DNA from: Thermaerobacter marianensis DSM 12885
Lineage (GTDB): Bacteria; Bacillota; Sulfobacillia; Thermaerobacterales; Thermaerobacteraceae
Length of the DNA: 64,000 nt
NCBI RefSeq assembly: GCF_000184705.1
Contig: NC_014831.1
Span: 806,001 to 870,000 of the forward strand
Reading direction: 5' to 3'
The notes beneath the pieces were generated by a model. The model did no database searches, was not told the DNA's origin, and saw nothing but the letters and a program-made list of their open reading frames with translations. Made by a program: the position numbers and the translations under genes. Below, piece by piece: positions 25,358-34,217 of the stretch (positions within the stretch are counted from its first letter, which is position 1; the number at the start of each line of letters is the position of its first letter).

Positions 25358-26215
25358 GTGGACCTCGGAACCGTTGCCGGCTTCGTCCTCGCCATCGCCG
25401 CCGTGCTCATCGCCAACGTGATGGAAGGCGGCGAGCTGCGCCAGTTGCTGAACCCGTCCGCCAGCCTGCTGGTCTTTGGCGGCACCCTGGGCGCCACGCT
25501 GGCCAGCGCCGGTCTGGCCAACGTGCGGCTGGTGCCCGCCGCCATCCTCTACGCCCTGCGGCCGCCGCGCCTGGAGCCGCGCCAGCTGATCGAGAAGATG
25601 GTCCAGCTGGCCCAGCAGGCCCGCCGCGAGGGTCTCCTCTCCCTGGAGGAAGAGCGCAAGAACCTGGACGACCCCTTCTTCGCCAAGGGCCTGCAGTTCG
25701 TCATCGACGGCGCCGACCCCGAGATGGTGGAAGAGGTGATGGCCAACGCCATCGAGGCCGAGCAGCGCCACCACCTGGTGGCGGCGGGGGTGCTGGAGAC
25801 CGCGGGCGGCTACGCCCCCACCATGGGCATCATCGGCACCGTGCTGGGCCTGATCCACGTGCTGGGCAACCTGGAAGACACCTCGAAGCTGGGGCCCGCC
25901 ATCGCCGTCGCCTTCATGGCCACCTTCTACGGCATCGCCACCGCCAACCTGCTCTGGCTGCCCCTGGCCAACAAGATCAAGGCCAACGTCCAGGCGGAGA
26001 CCGAGGTCCGGCGCATGGTGGTGGAAGGGGTCCTCTCCATTCAGAGGGGCGACAACCCGATGATCGTCCGCGAGAAGCTGGAGGCCTTCCTGGCCGCCGA
26101 CGGCGGCAAGGGCGGCGCCGGGGCGGCGGAGGGCGCCTCGGGGGCGGGTGGCGCCGGAGCCGGCGGCACGGGAACCCGGGGCGCGGGCGCCCGGGTGGCC
26201 GGGGTGGGTGACTGA
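25358..26215 (+). CDS. motA: Flagellar motor stator protein MotA
   Basis: A 285-residue membrane protein with four helices. Marks: the N-terminal VAGFVLAIAAVLIANVMEGG, NPSASLLVFGGTLGATL, the cytoplasmic loop with RREGLLSLEEERKNLDDPFFAKGLQFVIDG (charged residues that contact FliG), ETAGGYAPTMGIIGTVLGLI and FYGIATANLLWLPLANKIK. The last 40 residues are Gly/Ala-rich and not conserved in the family. Start GTG at 25358. Its stop overlaps the motB start. With MotB it forms the proton channel that drives flagellar rotation. Confidence 0.92.
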   Translation: MDLGTVAGFVLAIAAVLIANVMEGGELRQLLNPSASLLVFGGTLGATLASAGLANVRLVPAAILYALRPPRLEPRQLIEKMVQLAQQARREGLLSLEEERKNLDDPFFAKGLQFVIDGADPEMVEEVMANAIEAEQRHHLVAAGVLETAGGYAPTMGIIGTVLGLIHVLGNLEDTSKLGPAIAVAFMATFYGIATANLLWLPLANKIKANVQAETEVRRMVVEGVLSIQRGDNPMIVREKLEAFLAADGGKGGAGAAEGASGAGGAGAGGTGTRGAGARVAGVGD

Positions 26216-27246
26216 TGGCCGGGCTCCGCGGGTTCGGCAGCGGCTTCGGCGGCGAGCGGGAAGGCTGGGATGGCCGCGACGGCCTGGGCGCCGGCGCCGG
26301 TTCGTCCGGACGAACCGGCCGCCGGCGGGCGGGCCGGGGCCTGGCAAGAGCCGGCGGCGCGGGTGGCCCGGGCGGCGGCCATGGGGGCGGCCACGGCGGC
26401 GGGGGCGGGCACGAGGGCGCCGGTTCCATGCGCTGGCTGCTCACCTACGCCGACCTCATCACGCTGCTGCTGGCGTTCTTCGTCGTCATGTACGCCATGT
26501 CCGAGGTCAACGCCACCCGCTACCGGGCCCTGGCGGCGTCCCTGCGGGCCGCCTTCGCCACCGCCGGCGAGGCGCTGATCGACACCAAGGGGATCTCCCC
26601 CGACGCCCGCAAGGTGCTGGACGGGCTGAACCAGGACACCGGCCAGCCCTTCCCGCCGTCCACCGCCCCGGGGACGAACCCGGCCCCCGAGGAGAACCCG
26701 GGCGGCCAGGGGGAGGGCCCGGGGCGCCTTCCGGTCGTCACCGGCCCGCCCGGCGAGGAAGAGCGCCTCCGGGACCTGGTGGACCAGGTCAACGCCGCCT
26801 TGCGGGATGCGGGCCTGGGCGGCCGGGCCTCCGCCCAGCTGACCGACCGGGGCGTGGCCATCATCTTCGAGGACCAGGTCTTCTTTGACCTGGGCCGGGC
26901 GGACCTGCGCCCGGAAGGGCGGGAGCTCTTGCGCCGCCTGGCGCCGATCCTCGCCAGGGTCCCCGGCACCATCCTGGTGGAGGGGCATACCGACAACCTG
27001 CCCATCCATAGCGACCGCTTCCCGTCCAACTGGGAGCTCTCCACGGCCCGGGCCACCACCGTCGTCCGCTTCCTGGCCGAACAGGCGGGCCTCGATCCCC
27101 GCCGCCTGGCCGCCGCCGGGTACGGGGAGTGGCGGCCGCGGTTCCCCAATACCAGCGAGGCCAACCGGGCCCGCAACCGGCGCGTGGAGATCGTGGTGCT
27201 GCGCCAGAGCCTTGACCCGACGGCGCGGGCCGGCGTCACCCGCTGA
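26215..27246 (+). CDS. motB: Flagellar motor stator protein MotB with OmpA domain
   Basis: A 343-residue protein. A Gly/Arg/His-rich N-terminal tail of about 70 residues is longer than usual. It is followed by the single MotB helix SMRWLLTYADLITLLLAFFVV, with the proton-carrying Asp in YADLITL. A linker and a C-terminal OmpA-like peptidoglycan-binding domain follow (FFDLGRADLRPEGRELL, ILVEGHTDNLPI, NWELSTARATTVVRFL, RNRRVEIVVL). The ATG overlaps the motA TGA by one base. The Gly-rich tail may occupy the cytoplasmic entry of the stator. Confidence 0.92.
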   Translation: MAGLRGFGSGFGGEREGWDGRDGLGAGAGSSGRTGRRRAGRGLARAGGAGGPGGGHGGGHGGGGGHEGAGSMRWLLTYADLITLLLAFFVVMYAMSEVNATRYRALAASLRAAFATAGEALIDTKGISPDARKVLDGLNQDTGQPFPPSTAPGTNPAPEENPGGQGEGPGRLPVVTGPPGEEERLRDLVDQVNAALRDAGLGGRASAQLTDRGVAIIFEDQVFFDLGRADLRPEGRELLRRLAPILARVPGTILVEGHTDNLPIHSDRFPSNWELSTARATTVVRFLAEQAGLDPRRLAAAGYGEWRPRFPNTSEANRARNRRVEIVVLRQSLDPTARAGVTR

Positions 27247-27424
27247 GTGCGTGGGATGGATCCCCGCGTCGACACCGGATGACAAGGATCGCGCGGCGGA
27301 AATGAGACCTGGGTCCCACTTCGGTCCAGATGAAGTTTGATAGCGGCAGAAGTTACACTCGTTGACGGGAGCAGCTCCATAACGGTTGACCTGATCAGGA
27401 TGGATCCCTAGCAGGGGGTTGCCG

Positions 27425-28045
27425 GTGGGCAGAACGCCAGTGCGGATGCAAGGCGACGAGATTCGGTACCTGGTGGCGGTGTTGCGACGCCACGATCTCC
27501 CCACACTTCGCCATAGTCAACGCGTCGCGTCCCTGGCCCGCGGCATCGCCCGGCTTTTGGGGTGGGATCGCGACAGCCTGCAGATGTTGACCGTCGCCGG
27601 CTTGCTCCACGACGTGGGCAAGCTGGCGGTGGACCCGGCGATCCTGAACAAGCCGGGCCGGTTGACCGATGAAGAATGGGAGGCCATCCGCCGGCACCCC
27701 GTCGTGAGTGAGGAGCTGGTATTGCGGGCCACCGGCTCCTCCCGGATCGCCGCCTGGGTGCGGTCTCACCACGAGCGCTGGGACGGTGGCGGGTATCCCG
27801 ACGGCTTGAGCGGTACCGCGATCCCGCTGGCATCGCGGTTGCTAGCGCTGGCGGACGCCTTCGACGCGATGACGGAAGGGAGGCCGTACCACCTGCAGCC
27901 GCTCACGGTGGATGCGGCCCTCGCGGAGATCGATCGCCAGTCGGCGCGCCAATTCGACCCGGAGCTGGCGCCCTTGTTCATCGCCATGATCCGGGCCAGA
28001 CCGCCGCTGCCGGGCGATCTTCCCCGCCAGTGGCCACCCCAGTAG
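27425..28045 (+). CDS. HD-GYP domain protein (probable cyclic-di-GMP phosphodiesterase)
   Basis: A 206-residue stand-alone HD-GYP protein. The metal-binding motif HDVGK is in VAGLLHDVGKLAVD and the GYP motif in SHHERWDGGGYPDGLSG; other conserved parts are RHPVVSEELV, PLASRLLALADAFDAMT and RPYH. There is no receiver or sensor domain, so input must come from a partner. Start GTG at 27425 follows a GGGGG site; a TTG two codons earlier is possible. Between motAB and the partner-switching operon, a role in motility or biofilm choice is likely, but substrate and output are not shown by sequence. Confidence 0.85.
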   Translation: MGRTPVRMQGDEIRYLVAVLRRHDLPTLRHSQRVASLARGIARLLGWDRDSLQMLTVAGLLHDVGKLAVDPAILNKPGRLTDEEWEAIRRHPVVSEELVLRATGSSRIAAWVRSHHERWDGGGYPDGLSGTAIPLASRLLALADAFDAMTEGRPYHLQPLTVDAALAEIDRQSARQFDPELAPLFIAMIRARPPLPGDLPRQWPPQ

Positions 28046-28518: not shown

Positions 28519-31017
28519 ATGGGAGACCCTAGGAACCGCCTTGGAACCCCGGAGGCCCTTCGCCAAGCGGAGCGAAGCGCCCATTTCGCCGCCTTCCGCC
28601 GCCTCATCGACCGCGGCATTGCGGCCCTGGAGGCCCGCGACGCCCTGGCGGCCATCGAGCATTTCACCGCTGCCTACGACTTGGCCGTGGCGTGGCGTTT
28701 TGGAGACGACGTTGTTTACGGCACCCTCTTGAACTTGTCCATTGCCCGCCGCCTGGCCGGAGATTATGAAGGGGCGCTCCATGCGTTGGAGCGGGCCCTG
28801 GCACTTGACGATCTGACGGTGGCGCAGCGGGCTGCTTTGTGGAACGAGATGGGCGTCTTTCACAGCGAACGTGGGAATTATCGCAAGGCCGCGTTCTGCG
28901 GTATTCGGGCCTACCGGCTGGCCGCGGGGTCGGCCTCCGATCCCAACCTGTGCGCCGAAGTTGCCGGCAACGTGGTGGATTCCTACCTGCATCTGGGCGC
29001 TCCCGAGCAGGCTGTCCGGTGGGCGGCCCGGGCCGCCTGGCATGCCCGGCGCGCTACGCCGTGGAGGAGGCAGCACGTGGCTGTGCAAACGGTGGCCGCG
29101 TGCCTGGCGACGGGCCGACTGCGCTTGGCAGAACGGATCCTGCGCCGCCTGGAAATGGAATCATTGGACCCGGACTTCATCAGCCAATTCCTGCGCCTGC
29201 GGGCCGAGTGGTGGTTCCGGACGGGGGACCGCCGGCAGGCCCTGGCCTGGGCCGCCCGGGCCCTGGATGCGGCGGTCCGGGATATGAGCCCCGAGGACGT
29301 CGAAGACGCTTGCCGTGCCCTTGAGCGGTTCGGGGGCCAGTGTCCGAACCCCCACTGGGAGCGCCATCTGCTGGACGCCCTGCGGAGCCACCAGGAGCTC
29401 ATCGGCGCCTTCGCCCGGGCCTGCACGGATCTCGACCTGGGAGGGGAGCCGCAGATGGCCTTGGTCCTGGCCGGCCGGGACGGGCGGATCCTGCTCCGCG
29501 CCGGCGGGAATCAGGTCCTGGACCGCCTGGCGGAGCAGGGGTACGTGGCCGGCGCCGTGGTGGCCGAAGCGGAATGGGACGCCAAGTTTGCCCGGGCGGC
29601 CGTGGCGAGCTTCCGCAACCGTTCCCATGCCCCCAACCCCGACCGCGCCATCGAACGCGACATCGAAGGCTACGTGCTCGTATGGCCTCCCCTGCCCACG
29701 CTGGCGCAAGCCATCGCCACTCTGACCGCCCGCATGCACGCCGACGAAAACGCCGCCCGGTTGCAGGCCGACAACCAGCAGGCCCTGGCCAAGCTCTCGG
29801 CTTTCCATGACGCCGCCCTGGCCCTGGGCGGCCCCCTGGAGACGGGGGAGGTTGTGACCCGACTGCTGGCCTTGACCCAGCAATTGAGCCACAGCGACGG
29901 CGTGGCGCTGTTGTTCACTGACCCCGCCCGGGGGACGTGGGCCGAAGGCCTGGACGGCGAGGCGCTGCGCCGCTCGCGCGCATTCCAGACGACGGCGGAG
30001 AAGGGGCGGCCGCAGCGCCTGATCCGGGACGATCCCCGGGCCCGGGACGACCTGCAGCAGCTCGGGGTGGCCTCCCTGATCGCGGTCCCCGTCTACTTCG
30101 GCGGCACCGAGTGCGGGGCGGTCCTGGCGGCGGCCCGCCTGGCGGGTGCGCCCTTCAGCGAAGAGGACCTGGAGCTGGTGAGCTTCATCAGCAAGCAGTT
30201 CGGCCTGGCTCTCGAGAACGCCGCCCTGCGGGACGACCTCAGCCGCCGGCTGGAAGCCCTGACCCGCGACCTGCGCATCGCCCGCCGGCTCCAGCAGGCC
30301 TTCATGCCCGGGGGCGTGATCCGGGAAGACGGCGTGGTCCTCACCGGCATGAGCGTGCCGGCCAAGTACGTGGGCGGCGACGTGTACGACATCACGCACT
30401 TTCCCGACGGTTCCTGGCGTGTCGCCGTCGGTGACGTCATGGGCAAGGGCGTCGGGGCGGCCATGCTGGGCTCCATCTTGCTGGTTCGCCTGCGCGAGAC
30501 CTGGGCGAGGGAGCCCTTCGGCCCGGACCTGGTGCGACATCTGGATGAAATTGTCGCTCCGGACTTGCGCCGGGGCCGCGCTCTCGCTACGCTCCTCCTA
30601 GCCCTGTACTGCCCGCGGAATCGCCAGCTGCGGGTGCTGACGGCGGGGCACGACGGTCCCGTTCTCTGGCGCGGCGGCTCGTGGCATCCCGTGACCCGGG
30701 GCGGCGGGACGGCCCTCGGGCTGCTGCCGGGGTACGGAACGGTGGCCGAGGCCACGCTGCCGGTCCAGCCGGGCGACGTGGTCCTGTTCTACTCCGACGG
30801 TTTCGCGGAAATCCTGCTGGACCGCAGGGGGGTCAGCGCCAGCCGGGAAGTCGCGGACGCCTTGCTGCGTCATGGCTTGAAGCCTTCCGCAGGGGACGCC
30901 CAGGCTCTGCTGGACCAGATCAGGGGGCTAACGGAAAACGGGGATCATCCCGATGATGTCACGGTGGTGGTGTTGGGTGTCCGTTCGCAGAGTGGCGGTG
31001 GAATTGATGCAACGTGA
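28519..31017 (+). CDS. SpoIIE-type PP2C phosphatase with TPR-like and GAF regions
   Basis: An 832-residue regulator. Residues about 30-290 are helical repeats of TPR type (AIEHFTAAYDLAVAW, DYEGALHALERALAL, NYRKAAFCGIRAYRL). Residues about 430-580 form a GAF-like sensor (GGPLETGEVVTRLLALTQ, GVASLIAVPVYFGG, SEEDLELVSFISKQFGLALENA). The C-terminal part (from about 590) is a SpoIIE/RsbU PP2C domain with VGGDVYDI, VAVGDVMGKGVGAAML, LTAGHDGPVLW, VLFYSDGFAEI and HPDDVTVVVL, including the metal-binding Asp residues. It would dephosphorylate an anti-anti-sigma protein such as the STAS protein two genes on. Its end overlaps the next start. Confidence 0.88.
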   Translation: MGDPRNRLGTPEALRQAERSAHFAAFRRLIDRGIAALEARDALAAIEHFTAAYDLAVAWRFGDDVVYGTLLNLSIARRLAGDYEGALHALERALALDDLTVAQRAALWNEMGVFHSERGNYRKAAFCGIRAYRLAAGSASDPNLCAEVAGNVVDSYLHLGAPEQAVRWAARAAWHARRATPWRRQHVAVQTVAACLATGRLRLAERILRRLEMESLDPDFISQFLRLRAEWWFRTGDRRQALAWAARALDAAVRDMSPEDVEDACRALERFGGQCPNPHWERHLLDALRSHQELIGAFARACTDLDLGGEPQMALVLAGRDGRILLRAGGNQVLDRLAEQGYVAGAVVAEAEWDAKFARAAVASFRNRSHAPNPDRAIERDIEGYVLVWPPLPTLAQAIATLTARMHADENAARLQADNQQALAKLSAFHDAALALGGPLETGEVVTRLLALTQQLSHSDGVALLFTDPARGTWAEGLDGEALRRSRAFQTTAEKGRPQRLIRDDPRARDDLQQLGVASLIAVPVYFGGTECGAVLAAARLAGAPFSEEDLELVSFISKQFGLALENAALRDDLSRRLEALTRDLRIARRLQQAFMPGGVIREDGVVLTGMSVPAKYVGGDVYDITHFPDGSWRVAVGDVMGKGVGAAMLGSILLVRLRETWAREPFGPDLVRHLDEIVAPDLRRGRALATLLLALYCPRNRQLRVLTAGHDGPVLWRGGSWHPVTRGGGTALGLLPGYGTVAEATLPVQPGDVVLFYSDGFAEILLDRRGVSASREVADALLRHGLKPSAGDAQALLDQIRGLTENGDHPDDVTVVVLGVRSQSGGGIDAT

Positions 31018-31789
31018 TGTGGTGGCGGCGTGCTGCTGGCAGGACGGCGAGCGGGTGGTCTGGCTGTCCTTTGCGGAAGAGCAACGGGAGGGCAGCGGTG
31101 CTCCGGGCGACCCGGGCGCGGGAGCGGCTCGGCCGGAGACGGATGACGCGGGGCAGGCAGGGCGGCTGGACCGGCTGCACCAGGCGGACGAACCGCCCAA
31201 TCAGGACGACATGCAGGTGATCGTCCTGGGGAGCCGTCACCGGCTGGGCGTGTTCTACGGGAGGCGGGGCCGGGCGCTGACCGAGGCACAAAAGGCCCTG
31301 CTGGCGGCCCTGGCGGACGGCCGCCTGAAGGTGGAGGCGGCGGCGGGTGATATGGGAAAAGATGGGTTTATAGGGGGGGGGGGGGTAAAACTTTCCAAGC
31401 CCCGATTCTCGGCGAGGTTTCGCCGGCCGTCGGGCGTGGCCACCGCCCGCCGGCGGCTGCAGCAGGTGCTGGCCGAAGACGGCTTCGACCCCTCCCTCAT
31501 CCAGCGGGTGGTGCTGGCGTCCGCCGAAGCGATGAACAACGCCGTGCTCTACGCCGGGGGCGGCCGCATCGCCGTGTACGTCGACCCTGACGAGCTGAAT
31601 GTCGTGGTCACCGACGAGGGACCGGGCATCGCCTTCGACAAGCTGGCCCGCACGCTCCTGGAACCTCGCGACCGCAAGACCGTGGGGCGGGGCCACGGGT
31701 ACTGGCTCATGGTCACCCTCTCTGCCCAGTGCCGGGTCTTCTCAGGACCCGGAGGAACCCGTGTCGAACTCGTCTTCGAACTCTCGTAG
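31007..31789 (+). CDS. HATPase-fold serine kinase/anti-sigma-type protein with G13 tract
   Basis: A 260-residue protein. The N-terminal 120 residues are an unrecognised domain with an Asp/Glu-rich loop. The C-terminal 110 residues are an RsbW/SpoIIAB-like ATPase: ASAEAMNNAVLYA (N box), VVTDEGPGIAF (G1 box), VGRGHGYWLMVTL (G2 box). Such kinases phosphorylate the STAS partner and release or bind a sigma factor. Between the two domains a run of thirteen G (31373-31385) encodes four Gly. Loss of one G would place a TAA directly after the run. The ATG at 31007 overlaps the phosphatase stop. Confidence 0.82.
   Translation: MQRDVVAACCWQDGERVVWLSFAEEQREGSGAPGDPGAGAARPETDDAGQAGRLDRLHQADEPPNQDDMQVIVLGSRHRLGVFYGRRGRALTEAQKALLAALADGRLKVEAAAGDMGKDGFIGGGGVKLSKPRFSARFRRPSGVATARRRLQQVLAEDGFDPSLIQRVVLASAEAMNNAVLYAGGGRIAVYVDPDELNVVVTDEGPGIAFDKLARTLLEPRDRKTVGRGHGYWLMVTLSAQCRVFSGPGGTRVELVFELS
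31373..31385 (+). repeat. Homopolymer of 13 G inside the kinase gene
   Basis: Thirteen consecutive G read as four Gly codons plus the first base of GTA. With 12 G the next codon is TAA; with 14 G the frame runs wrong for about 70 codons to a TGA. The surrounding 40 bases are AT-richer than the gene. Such tracts slip during replication and are typical of phase-variable loci. Confidence 0.85.
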
Positions 31790-31796
31790 CGGGGGG

Positions 31797-32138
31797 ATGG
31801 GTGTGGCCGATGAGGTCGTCCAGGTGGCCTCTCCGCAGGGGCTGAGTCTGGTGGTCACCTGTGACCTGGATTTCGAGCGTGCCGAACGGGTGGCCGAGGC
31901 CCTGGCGAGGTGCGACCGGGGTCCGGTGACGCTGGACCTGACCCGGTGCCAGTTCATCGACTCGACGGGCATCGGCGTCCTGGTCGACACCTTGCGCACC
32001 TACCAGGACCGGGGCATCGAGGTACGGGCCGTTCGGGTCCGCCCGTCAGTCTTTGAGGTGCTGGAGATCGTCGGCGCGGTCGACGTGTTCGGCCGGAACC
32101 TGTTCGCCATCGAGGACGGGACCATCGGGAGACCCTGA
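31797..32138 (+). CDS. STAS domain anti-anti-sigma factor
   Basis: A 113-residue single-domain STAS protein. TLDLTRCQFIDSTGIGVLVDTL contains D-S-T-G-I-G, the loop with the phosphorylatable Ser of SpoIIAA/RsbV proteins. RPSVFEVLEIVGAVDVF is the usual closing helix and strand. It would switch partners between the HATPase kinase encoded just upstream and a sigma factor, reset by the SpoIIE-type phosphatase. No sigma-factor gene is in the window. Starts at ATG 31797 or the GTG two codons on; 7 bases separate it from the kinase gene. Confidence 0.87.
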   Translation: MGVADEVVQVASPQGLSLVVTCDLDFERAERVAEALARCDRGPVTLDLTRCQFIDSTGIGVLVDTLRTYQDRGIEVRAVRVRPSVFEVLEIVGAVDVFGRNLFAIEDGTIGRP

Positions 32139-32153: not shown

Positions 32154-34217
32154 GTGGGAACGCCCTCGGAGACGGTCGTGCTGGTGACCGCCAGGAGCGT
32201 CGACGATGCCATTGGCCGGGCTGCCCGCCTCGTCGGCCGACCCGCCGCGGGCGCCCGGGCGGAGGTGGTGGACCCCGGCCGCAGGGTGCTGTCGCGCTTC
32301 TTCCTGCGGCCGATGGTGGTCCGCGTCACCTTTCCCGATGAACCCCTCGTCGAGGAGACCGCGCCGCATGCTCGATCCCCCGGGCAAGAACCCCTCCAGG
32401 ACGGCGGCGGCCGCCGCGAACGGGAAGGCGGCGAGGCGCCGGCCGGCGCGCCCGTCACCCTGGAACGGCCCACCCTGGCCCGGGTGCGGAACGGCGCCCT
32501 CGAGATCCTGCCGGGCTCGTCCGAACAGCCGGCCATCCTGCGGCCCCACCGGGGCGTCACGTTGCGGGTCAACGGCGAGCCGGCGACCGGTCCCGTCACC
32601 GTGACCGCCGCGGACCGCGTCGAGGTGACGTTCACGGAGCCCGACCGGCCTGCGGACGACGAGGGCGAGCGGTACCGGATCCTGGTGGCCCGCGACGCCA
32701 TGAGCGCGGAGCTGGTCGTCCCCCTCCAGGAGGTCACCGTGTTGCGGGACACGGCGCCCGCGCCGGTGGTCGACCTGGAGCCCGTGACCGTCCTGCGCCC
32801 GCCCGCGGGGTTGACGGTGGAGGAGGTGCGGGCGGCCCTCCAGAGGGCGGGGGTGGTCCACGGTCTCGACCTAGAGGCGCTGGAGCAAGCGGTCCGGGAA
32901 GGCTCGCCGGCGCCCCGCATCGTGGCCCGGGGGACCCCGCCGGCGGACGGCCGGGACGGGCGGTTCCGTCCCCTGGTGCCCGCGGAACCGCGGCAGGCCC
33001 GGGACGATGAGGCCCGGCGGCGGGATCCCCGCGACCATTACCCGGTGGTCTCCGTCCGGGAGGGGGCCACCCTGGGTTTCCTCGAGCCGCCCACGCCGGG
33101 TGAGCCGGGTCGCGACGTGCTGGGCCGGGAGATTGCGCCCCGCCTCGGGCGGGCAATCCGGGTGATCTGTGGCCCCGGCGTCGTCCGCACCGGCACCCCG
33201 GACGGGCGGGAGGAATTCCGCGCCGTGCGGCCGGGCCGGCCGGTCTTCCAGAAGATCGGCCGGAACGCCTGGAACGTGGACGTGGTGCCCCTGCTGGTCC
33301 ATGAGGGGGATGTGGACGCAGAATCCGGCCACGTGCGCTTCAAGGGCGACGTGGTGGTCACGGGCAACGTGCGGGAAGGGATGAAGGTGACCGCCACCGG
33401 CCGGATTCACGTCTACGGCTACGCCGACCGGGCGTACCTGCAGGCCGATGGCGACGTCCGGGTCGACGGCGGCGTCGTCCAGTCCCGGGTGGTGGCGGGG
33501 GCCCGGGTGGGGCTGTACGCCGACCTCAAGGCCGTCCTGCCGCCGCTGCGGCAGGGGGTCGAGCGGATCTTGGAGGCCATGCGGGTGGTGGAGGGGGCCG
33601 CTTCGTTCCAGCGGAAGGACATCGCCCGCTTCGGTCCCGGCCGGCTGGTCCGCCTGCTCATCGACATGAAGTTCGGGGACGTCCGGGCCAAGGCGCGGGC
33701 CGTGCACGAGCGGCTCAGCCAGTACGAGGGCGAGCTGGACTACGACGTGGAACGGCTCCGCCAGCCCGTGGAGGCCCTGGCCACGGGCGCCATCGAGGAC
33801 CGCTTCGACATCCAGGGGCTGTCCGCGGCTCTGAAGCAGGCCGAGGAATTCCTGGGCTGGTTCGACGGCGACGGCACGGCCAAGGCCATCATCGGTTACG
33901 CCCACAATGCCGAGGTGTTCGCGACCCGCCAGGTGGTGGTCGGGTCCGAGGGGACCTACCACGCGCGGATCGCGGCCCGGGACCGGGTGATCGTCCAGGG
34001 GGCGGTGGTGGGCGGGAGCGTGGAGGCCGCGCGGTCCATCACGGTCCTGGAAGCCGGCTCGCCCGCGTTGCCGTCCACGGTCCTGGCGGTGGGGGCCGGC
34101 GGCACCATCCGGGTCGGGTACGCCTACGAGAACGTCTGGCTCCGCGTCGGCCATGTCCAGCGCCGGCTCCGGGACGCGCAGCGGAACGTGCATGTTACGG
34201 CGTCGTCCTTCCGATGA
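32154..34217 (+). CDS. FapA/DUF342 family protein with Jag-N-like start
   Basis: A 687-residue cytoplasmic protein. The first 60 residues (VTARSVDDAIGRAARLVG, EVVDPGRRVLSRFFLRP) resemble the Jag N-terminal domain. The middle is a DUF342 core: VSVREGATLGFLEPPTPGEPGRDVLGREI, followed by repeating short strands (GDVVVTGNVREGMKVTATGRIHVYG, GDVRVDGGVVQSRVVAGARV) typical of its beta-helix, then a helical hairpin and a final strand set. Family members affect flagellar assembly or polar positioning (FapA). It starts 16 bases after the STAS gene, so it belongs to the partner-switching operon and may be its output or scaffold (inference). Confidence 0.82.
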   Translation: MGTPSETVVLVTARSVDDAIGRAARLVGRPAAGARAEVVDPGRRVLSRFFLRPMVVRVTFPDEPLVEETAPHARSPGQEPLQDGGGRREREGGEAPAGAPVTLERPTLARVRNGALEILPGSSEQPAILRPHRGVTLRVNGEPATGPVTVTAADRVEVTFTEPDRPADDEGERYRILVARDAMSAELVVPLQEVTVLRDTAPAPVVDLEPVTVLRPPAGLTVEEVRAALQRAGVVHGLDLEALEQAVREGSPAPRIVARGTPPADGRDGRFRPLVPAEPRQARDDEARRRDPRDHYPVVSVREGATLGFLEPPTPGEPGRDVLGREIAPRLGRAIRVICGPGVVRTGTPDGREEFRAVRPGRPVFQKIGRNAWNVDVVPLLVHEGDVDAESGHVRFKGDVVVTGNVREGMKVTATGRIHVYGYADRAYLQADGDVRVDGGVVQSRVVAGARVGLYADLKAVLPPLRQGVERILEAMRVVEGAASFQRKDIARFGPGRLVRLLIDMKFGDVRAKARAVHERLSQYEGELDYDVERLRQPVEALATGAIEDRFDIQGLSAALKQAEEFLGWFDGDGTAKAIIGYAHNAEVFATRQVVVGSEGTYHARIAARDRVIVQGAVVGGSVEAARSITVLEAGSPALPSTVLAVGAGGTIRVGYAYENVWLRVGHVQRRLRDAQRNVHVTASSFR

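Follow-up and report, generated by a model that had tools for sequence, protein, structure and literature searches.

A G13 tract in the linker of a partner-switching kinase gene: a probable contingency locus in Thermaerobacter

Most described cases of homopolymer phase variation concern surface structures or modification genes in host-associated bacteria; a few concern master regulators. In partner switching, as understood from Bacillus, a missing RsbW/SpoIIAB-type kinase frees its target. Among described cases of homopolymer phase variation, the master sensor kinase gene bvgS of Bordetella pertussis carries a C6/C7 tract (PMC1891110), and reversible homopolymer frameshifts occur in flgR and flgS of Campylobacter jejuni, flhA of C. 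coli and fliP of Helicobacter pylori (PMC3930126). In the G-tract pilus operons of Bifidobacterium breve, replication slippage has been measured directly, with mixed tract lengths in one culture (PMC9187656). Our literature search, confined largely to openly accessible papers, yielded no paper linking rsbW or partner switching with phase variation. Here we describe a G13 tract within a partner-switching kinase gene of Thermaerobacter marianensis, which we consider probably a contingency locus, subjecting the kinase to phase variation by slipped-strand mispairing.

A long G tract between the domains of a kinase

The window, 64,000 nucleotides in all, comprises positions 806001-870000 of the single 2,844,696-bp chromosome of T. 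marianensis (G000). Its relevant features are as follows.

25358-27246, + strand: motA and motB, coding for the flagellar stator and lying upstream of the cassette
27419-28045, + strand: HD-GYP-like gene between motB and the cassette (NF053512, 6.9e-39, below cut-off; HDIG domain)
28519-31017, + strand: TPR-GAF-PP2C phosphatase of the SpoIIE/RsbU type (Pfam SpoIIE 5.6e-33, GAF 2e-09, TPR_12 3.2e-08)
31007-31789, + strand: kinase gene, 260 aa, with an N-terminal domain (no family assigned) and a HATPase_c_2 domain of the RsbW/SpoIIAB fold (Pfam PF13581, E 3.2e-16)
31007-31372, + strand: N-terminal domain of the kinase, the sole product left in the out-of-frame state
31348-31372, + strand: AT-rich stretch just upstream of the tract, 32% GC against 71% GC for the window
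31373-31385, + strand: G13 homopolymer, coding for Gly123-Gly126 and the first base of Val127 in a disordered interdomain linker
31386-31388, + strand: TAA right behind the tract, a stop codon at tract lengths divisible by 3; the relatives G001 and G002 have it behind the tract too
31386-31786, + strand: HATPase domain, missing from the out-of-frame product
31797-32138, + strand: STAS protein of the anti-anti-sigma type, RsbV/SpoIIAA-like (Pfam STAS 3.4e-14; TIGR00377 2.1e-11, below cut-off)
32154-34217, + strand: FapA (DUF342), flagellar assembly protein A (Pfam FapA 3e-30, FapA_N 3.4e-28)

Read directly from the sequence, the G13 homopolymer is flanked by TTTATA and TAAAAC, and the kinase frame is open from the ATG at 31007, across the tract, to the TAG at 31787-31789. 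Simulated tract lengths of 6 to 16 fall into three classes: the full-length kinase at 7, 10, 13 and 16 G (260 aa at 13), termination at the adjoining TAA at 6, 9, 12 and 15 G (126 aa at 12), and a wrong frame of about 193 residues at 8, 11 and 14 G (194 aa at 14). The tract is a coding repeat with a unit that is not a multiple of three, such that a change in length causes a frameshift, as in contingency loci. The first-pass annotation had placed 13 G at 31373-31385 inside a HATPase kinase gene, with 13, 10 and 16 leaving the protein intact, 12 leading to TAA and 14 to a wrong frame; position and length were exact on re-reading, and the simulation returned the same arithmetic.

A run of this length is exceptional in its surroundings. 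The window contains 24 G/C runs of length 6, two of 7, none of 8-12 and this one of 13, and the expected number of runs of at least 13 per whole genome is 0.002 when the fall-off in the window is extrapolated, or 0.004-0.013 using the relatives. Long G runs are otherwise strongly avoided in the window, because dinucleotide shuffling predicts about 40 overlapping G8 matches and those observed come from the G13 tract only. Genome-wide pattern searches of G000 give eight runs of at least 9, of which this is the longest, and none of 14 or more. GGG makes up 26% (497/1899) of the glycine codons in the window, where GGC is the commonest, and the other glycine runs there use mixed codons. The 25 bases before the tract are unusual as well: just 0.14% of window 25-mers are as AT-rich, this is the sole such spot in the window's cassette, and the corresponding 25 bases in G001 are likewise AT-rich (36% GC, in genomes of about 70%). 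This stretch may be either an aid to strand opening or a relic of the linker's origin.

The protein itself resembles the kinases of known partner-switching modules. AlphaFold, given ten sequences, predicts a confident HATPase domain at residues ~130-258, with a dip near residues 220-230, and an alpha/beta N-terminal domain of moderate confidence; linker residues 117-127, which include the tract-coded Gly123-126, have pLDDT below 50. The best Foldseek matches, SpoIIAB (1til, E 9.5e-07) and RsbW (6m36, E 1.1e-06), with TM-scores by target of 0.76-0.87, and a PDB sequence match to RsbW (E 0.001) assign the domain to the GHKL fold of the RsbW/SpoIIAB type. Its scores stay below the curated NCBIfam cut-offs for the RsbW and SpoIIAB equivalogs: NF003144 (20.7 of 145 bits), TIGR01925 (17.8 of 135) and NF041045 RsbA (41.5 of 210). 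We therefore do not file it as an equivalog member, and from the modelled fold it is predicted to work like RsbW/SpoIIAB.

The gene order is motA, motB, HD-GYP-like, a small ORF, TPR-GAF-PP2C, the tract-bearing kinase, STAS, FapA and a murJ-like gene, with the TGA of the PP2C gene overlapping the ATG of the kinase. Adjacent PP2C, HATPase_c_2 and STAS genes, each with a Pfam match above cut-off, constitute a partner-switching module. No sigma factor gene lies within the PP2C-kinase-STAS-FapA cassette. A paralogous HD and PP2C pair at ~2.243 Mb of the same chromosome (G000:C1, L080:5299-6818), with identities of 63% in the HD and 56% in the phosphatase domain, lies without kinase or STAS gene beside cheD-cheA-cheW-MCP-like genes (named by eye), so that an HD-PP2C pair is again tied to chemotaxis and motility.

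Further G tracts were noticed in these genomes. At G000:C1:2251338 (L055:1502-1522), in a poorly coding region near cheY/cheX-like genes, G9-TAGAACCTTCCA resembles G13-TAAAACTTTCCA in 19 of 21 bases, possibly by chance. At G000:C1:131553 (L035:1502-1513), a G12 tract precedes by ~9 bases the ATG of a gene whose product begins MCGRFTLT and looks SRAP/YedK-like by eye; it is a possible expression-tuning tract. A G10 tract at G000:C1:1202946 (L043:1502-1511) sits in a flagellar cluster (fliN - receiver - fliO/fliP), where it separates the receiver gene from a fliO-like ORF. G001 has a G10 tract (L041:1500-1509) right where an ArsR-like regulator gene (by eye) begins, immediately ahead of its start codon region or inside it, and G003 has tracts of G20 (L042:1490-1509) and G16 (L034:1494-1509), longer than any in the window's genome.

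The same site in related genomes

Alongside the window's genome we compared G001, G002 and G003 of the same genus and G007 from outside it. The orthologous linker site reads GTTAAC-G14-TAATTT in G001, where it is in frame (in that gene's own frame) and the protein has 281 aa. In G002 it reads GTTAAC-G7-TAATTT and is out of frame, giving a product of 149 aa that ends shortly behind the tract and lacks the kinase domain. Lengths of 13 (on), 14 (on) and 7 (off) thus place the variation expected of a contingency locus between species, not within one strain; three genomes carry the gene, two of them full-length and one off. G001 and G002 are near twins, with 96.4% identity in the block around the tract. 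The kinase has diverged to 52% protein identity, as have the flanks outside the tract, so the pure G run was kept while neighbouring sequence changed. By this comparison the tract is a feature of the genus, retained through the divergence of the protein. When the surroundings of all 29 tracts of at least 9 G in the four Thermaerobacter genomes were compared all against all, this locus was the only orthologous pair in which both members carry a tract.

G003 preserves the order of motA (89% identity to that of the window), motB, HD gene and murJ and, like the others, has flhA; the whole PP2C-kinase-STAS-FapA cassette is cleanly absent between the HD gene and murJ (L113:8717-8741), the flagellar genes being kept. 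Across the class, 154 genomes were searched and no more than four gave the full-length architecture: G000, G001, G002, where the frameshift splits it, and G007. The last is a MAG with the label Symbiobacterium thermophilum (DYFQ01000001); it has a homologous N-terminal domain and kinase and no G tract. The G007 locus (L114) is similar in having a PP2C gene in front of the kinase and fapA nearby, and differs in that the kinase is fused to STAS and the tract is missing altogether; this fusion in one protein (L067:8025-9182) amounts to an intramolecular partner-switch arrangement. A contig search returned no Thermaerobacter record beyond these genomes, its matches being the Symbiobacterium-labelled MAG contig of G007 and two distant partial ones. 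The first-pass annotation had proposed that relatives be compared, a degenerate glycine linker counting against its idea: within the genus no such linker occurs, and outside the genus the tract is absent.

The out-of-frame allele of G002 bears on whether the kinase is dying or merely switched off. Its kinase frame downstream of the tract is intact, and against G001 the downstream part has a dN/dS of 0.277 (13 synonymous and 10 replacement changes; Fisher p 0.003 versus equal rates), small numbers from a pair whose branches are not fully separable. The in-frame N-terminal part gives 0.41 for the same pair, above the downstream value. Derived replacements, polarised by the window sequence, are T>I, L>C and R>C in G001 and G>A and V>L in G002, with no excess in G002, and the kinase, PP2C and STAS genes of the two showed no further indel that breaks the frame. 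These figures indicate that the kinase domain downstream of the G002 frameshift stays under purifying selection. An internal restart would not rescue the whole domain in G002: the first start in the kinase frame, a TTG at L005:1567, lies behind the first helix and would leave the domain incomplete. G002 could also represent a recent loss instead of a reversible state, and its G7 would revert more slowly. This comparison lends strong support to the central proposal of the first-pass annotation, that a tract prone to slippage is positioned so as to switch a partner-switching kinase: the same site has 13, 14 and 7 G, one of these lengths being out of frame, and the downstream domain is under selection.

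A proposed heritable switch and its alternatives

In the model we favour, DNA polymerase slippage would add or remove G in the interdomain linker of the RsbW-like kinase, and we infer that this takes place in living populations. With n = 1 mod 3 (10, 13, 16) the full kinase would be made, the glycines forming a flexible linker that tolerates changes in length. With n = 0 mod 3 translation would end at the TAA right behind the tract and with n = 2 mod 3 it would run on in the wrong frame, both off states leaving the N-terminal domain alone. The kinase would phosphorylate its putative partner, the neighbouring STAS protein, and hold a presumed target, and the PP2C protein would reverse this. MutS usually restrains single-base slippage, and it is present in all four Thermaerobacter genomes.

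Which way the switch would act is a separate matter. The first-pass annotation had slippage switching the cascade off; the RsbW/SpoIIAB paradigm predicts the opposite, since off cells would have a partner-switching pathway without its kinase and a target freed permanently. Kinase loss need not shut the cascade, and may instead lock its output on, making it constitutive. The label of stress or sigma regulator is no more than putative for a cassette that is devoid of a sigma factor gene and has flagellar neighbours (motA, motB, fapA). Motility is the likeliest output because motA, motB and the HD gene lie in front and fapA within the cassette, and the pathway most likely concerns flagella or motility. 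We put forward more tentatively, as a possibility we hold at somewhat below even, that in free-living Thermaerobacter a homopolymer exerts heritable on/off control over an entire partner-switching pathway linked to the flagellar motor, generating mixed populations (for example motile and non-motile) without host or immune pressure. If so, signalling of the stress or motility type, usually seen as a reversible protein switch, would also be hard-wired by mutation in a fraction of the population, a case of bet-hedging in a 75-degree thermophile. The type strain of T. marianensis is reported to be non-motile, with flagellar genes in its genome (PMC3035304), and the switch would be a simple explanation for this.

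We judge it unlikely that the tract is a microsatellite, neutral or sustaining itself, which the linker tolerates, with G002 carrying a recently inactivated allele in a cassette that the cell can do without. The cassette does appear dispensable because it is cleanly absent from G003, the linker is disordered (pLDDT below 50), and homopolymers can regenerate by slippage. Yet runs of at least 8 G are rare and otherwise not positionally conserved, and where purifying selection acts on the gene a neutral tract would be expected to disappear, given that slippage disrupts the gene. A synonymous change to GGC or GGT would interrupt the tract at no cost, GGC being the commonest glycine codon.

Programmed slippage of RNA polymerase (or the ribosome), giving a fixed, non-heritable mix of full-length and truncated protein from every allele, as at the A9 run of Thermus thermophilus dnaX, is in our view quite improbable. 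It would fit the retention of a long homopolymer at a single site from which both products can arise, it has that thermophile precedent (PMC1088944), and it would also account for selection on the G002 kinase domain. However, described cases are A/T runs, the cited survey (PMC1088944) covering A and T runs only; tract length and in-frame residue vary among species (1 mod 3, 2 mod 3); and slippage at G7 would be inefficient. Some transcript slippage may occur on top of replication slippage.

It is very improbable that sequencing or assembly error hides tracts that are all truly in frame: G homopolymers are a common error type, but the run occupies the same site in three independently assembled genomes with unequal flanks, and a 7-base difference exceeds the expected errors of 1-2 bases. 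G-tract lengths in finished genomes can be wrong, as found in Bifidobacterium (PMC9187656); the T. marianensis genome was polished from 454 and 340x Illumina data (PMC3035304). In an 88.9-kb alignment of G001 and G002, the two genomes agree in 37 runs of 6 and one of 7; four further runs are off by 1-2, and large differences are otherwise absent. G002 also carries a G12 tract elsewhere, and general homopolymer undercalling in G002 is thereby dismissed. The tract itself is no artefact, even if exact lengths are wrong.

Other functions for the tract were considered and rejected. An internal promoter with the tract as spacer finds no sigma-70-like site in 31200-31900, and as a single-strand hairpin the stretch folds worse than its own shuffles (z 1.69). 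As for a G-quadruplex, the tract together with the GGG groups upstream of it matches the motif on inspection by eye. That motif turns up 33 times on this strand of the window, however, and the upstream groups are missing from G001, leaving nothing conserved beyond the tract itself.

Comparison with known systems

The three protein types of the cassette are those of RsbU-RsbW-RsbV and SpoIIE-SpoIIAB-SpoIIAA in Bacillus, and the kinase fold matches SpoIIAB and RsbW. Unlike its Bacillus counterparts, the kinase here has an extra N-terminal domain and a G-tract linker, and the cassette includes no gene for a sigma factor and has fapA and mot genes as neighbours.

As a homopolymer within the coding sequence of a regulatory kinase, where a one-base change truncates the kinase and alters a whole regulon, bvgS is similar. 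It encodes a membrane two-component kinase of a pathogen and has a short C6, whereas here the kinase is soluble and of the partner-switching type, its tract is G7-G14 and its bearer is a free-living thermophile. In flgR, flgS, flhA and fliP, too, homopolymers shift the frame of genes for flagellar regulation or export; the tracts cited for flgR are runs of A and T, and control is two-component and sigma-54-based, without a PP2C/HATPase/STAS pathway. B. breve shares a G tract of similar length in coding sequence and a GC-rich Gram-positive background, its tracts lying in surface pilin genes and ours in a regulator. The first-pass annotation knew of no described case, which holds, in the literature searched, for a partner-switching kinase as the target and does not hold for master kinases of flagella or virulence, whose phase variation by homopolymer is known from bvgS, flgS and flgR. 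What is new at this locus is the target, not the kind of mechanism.
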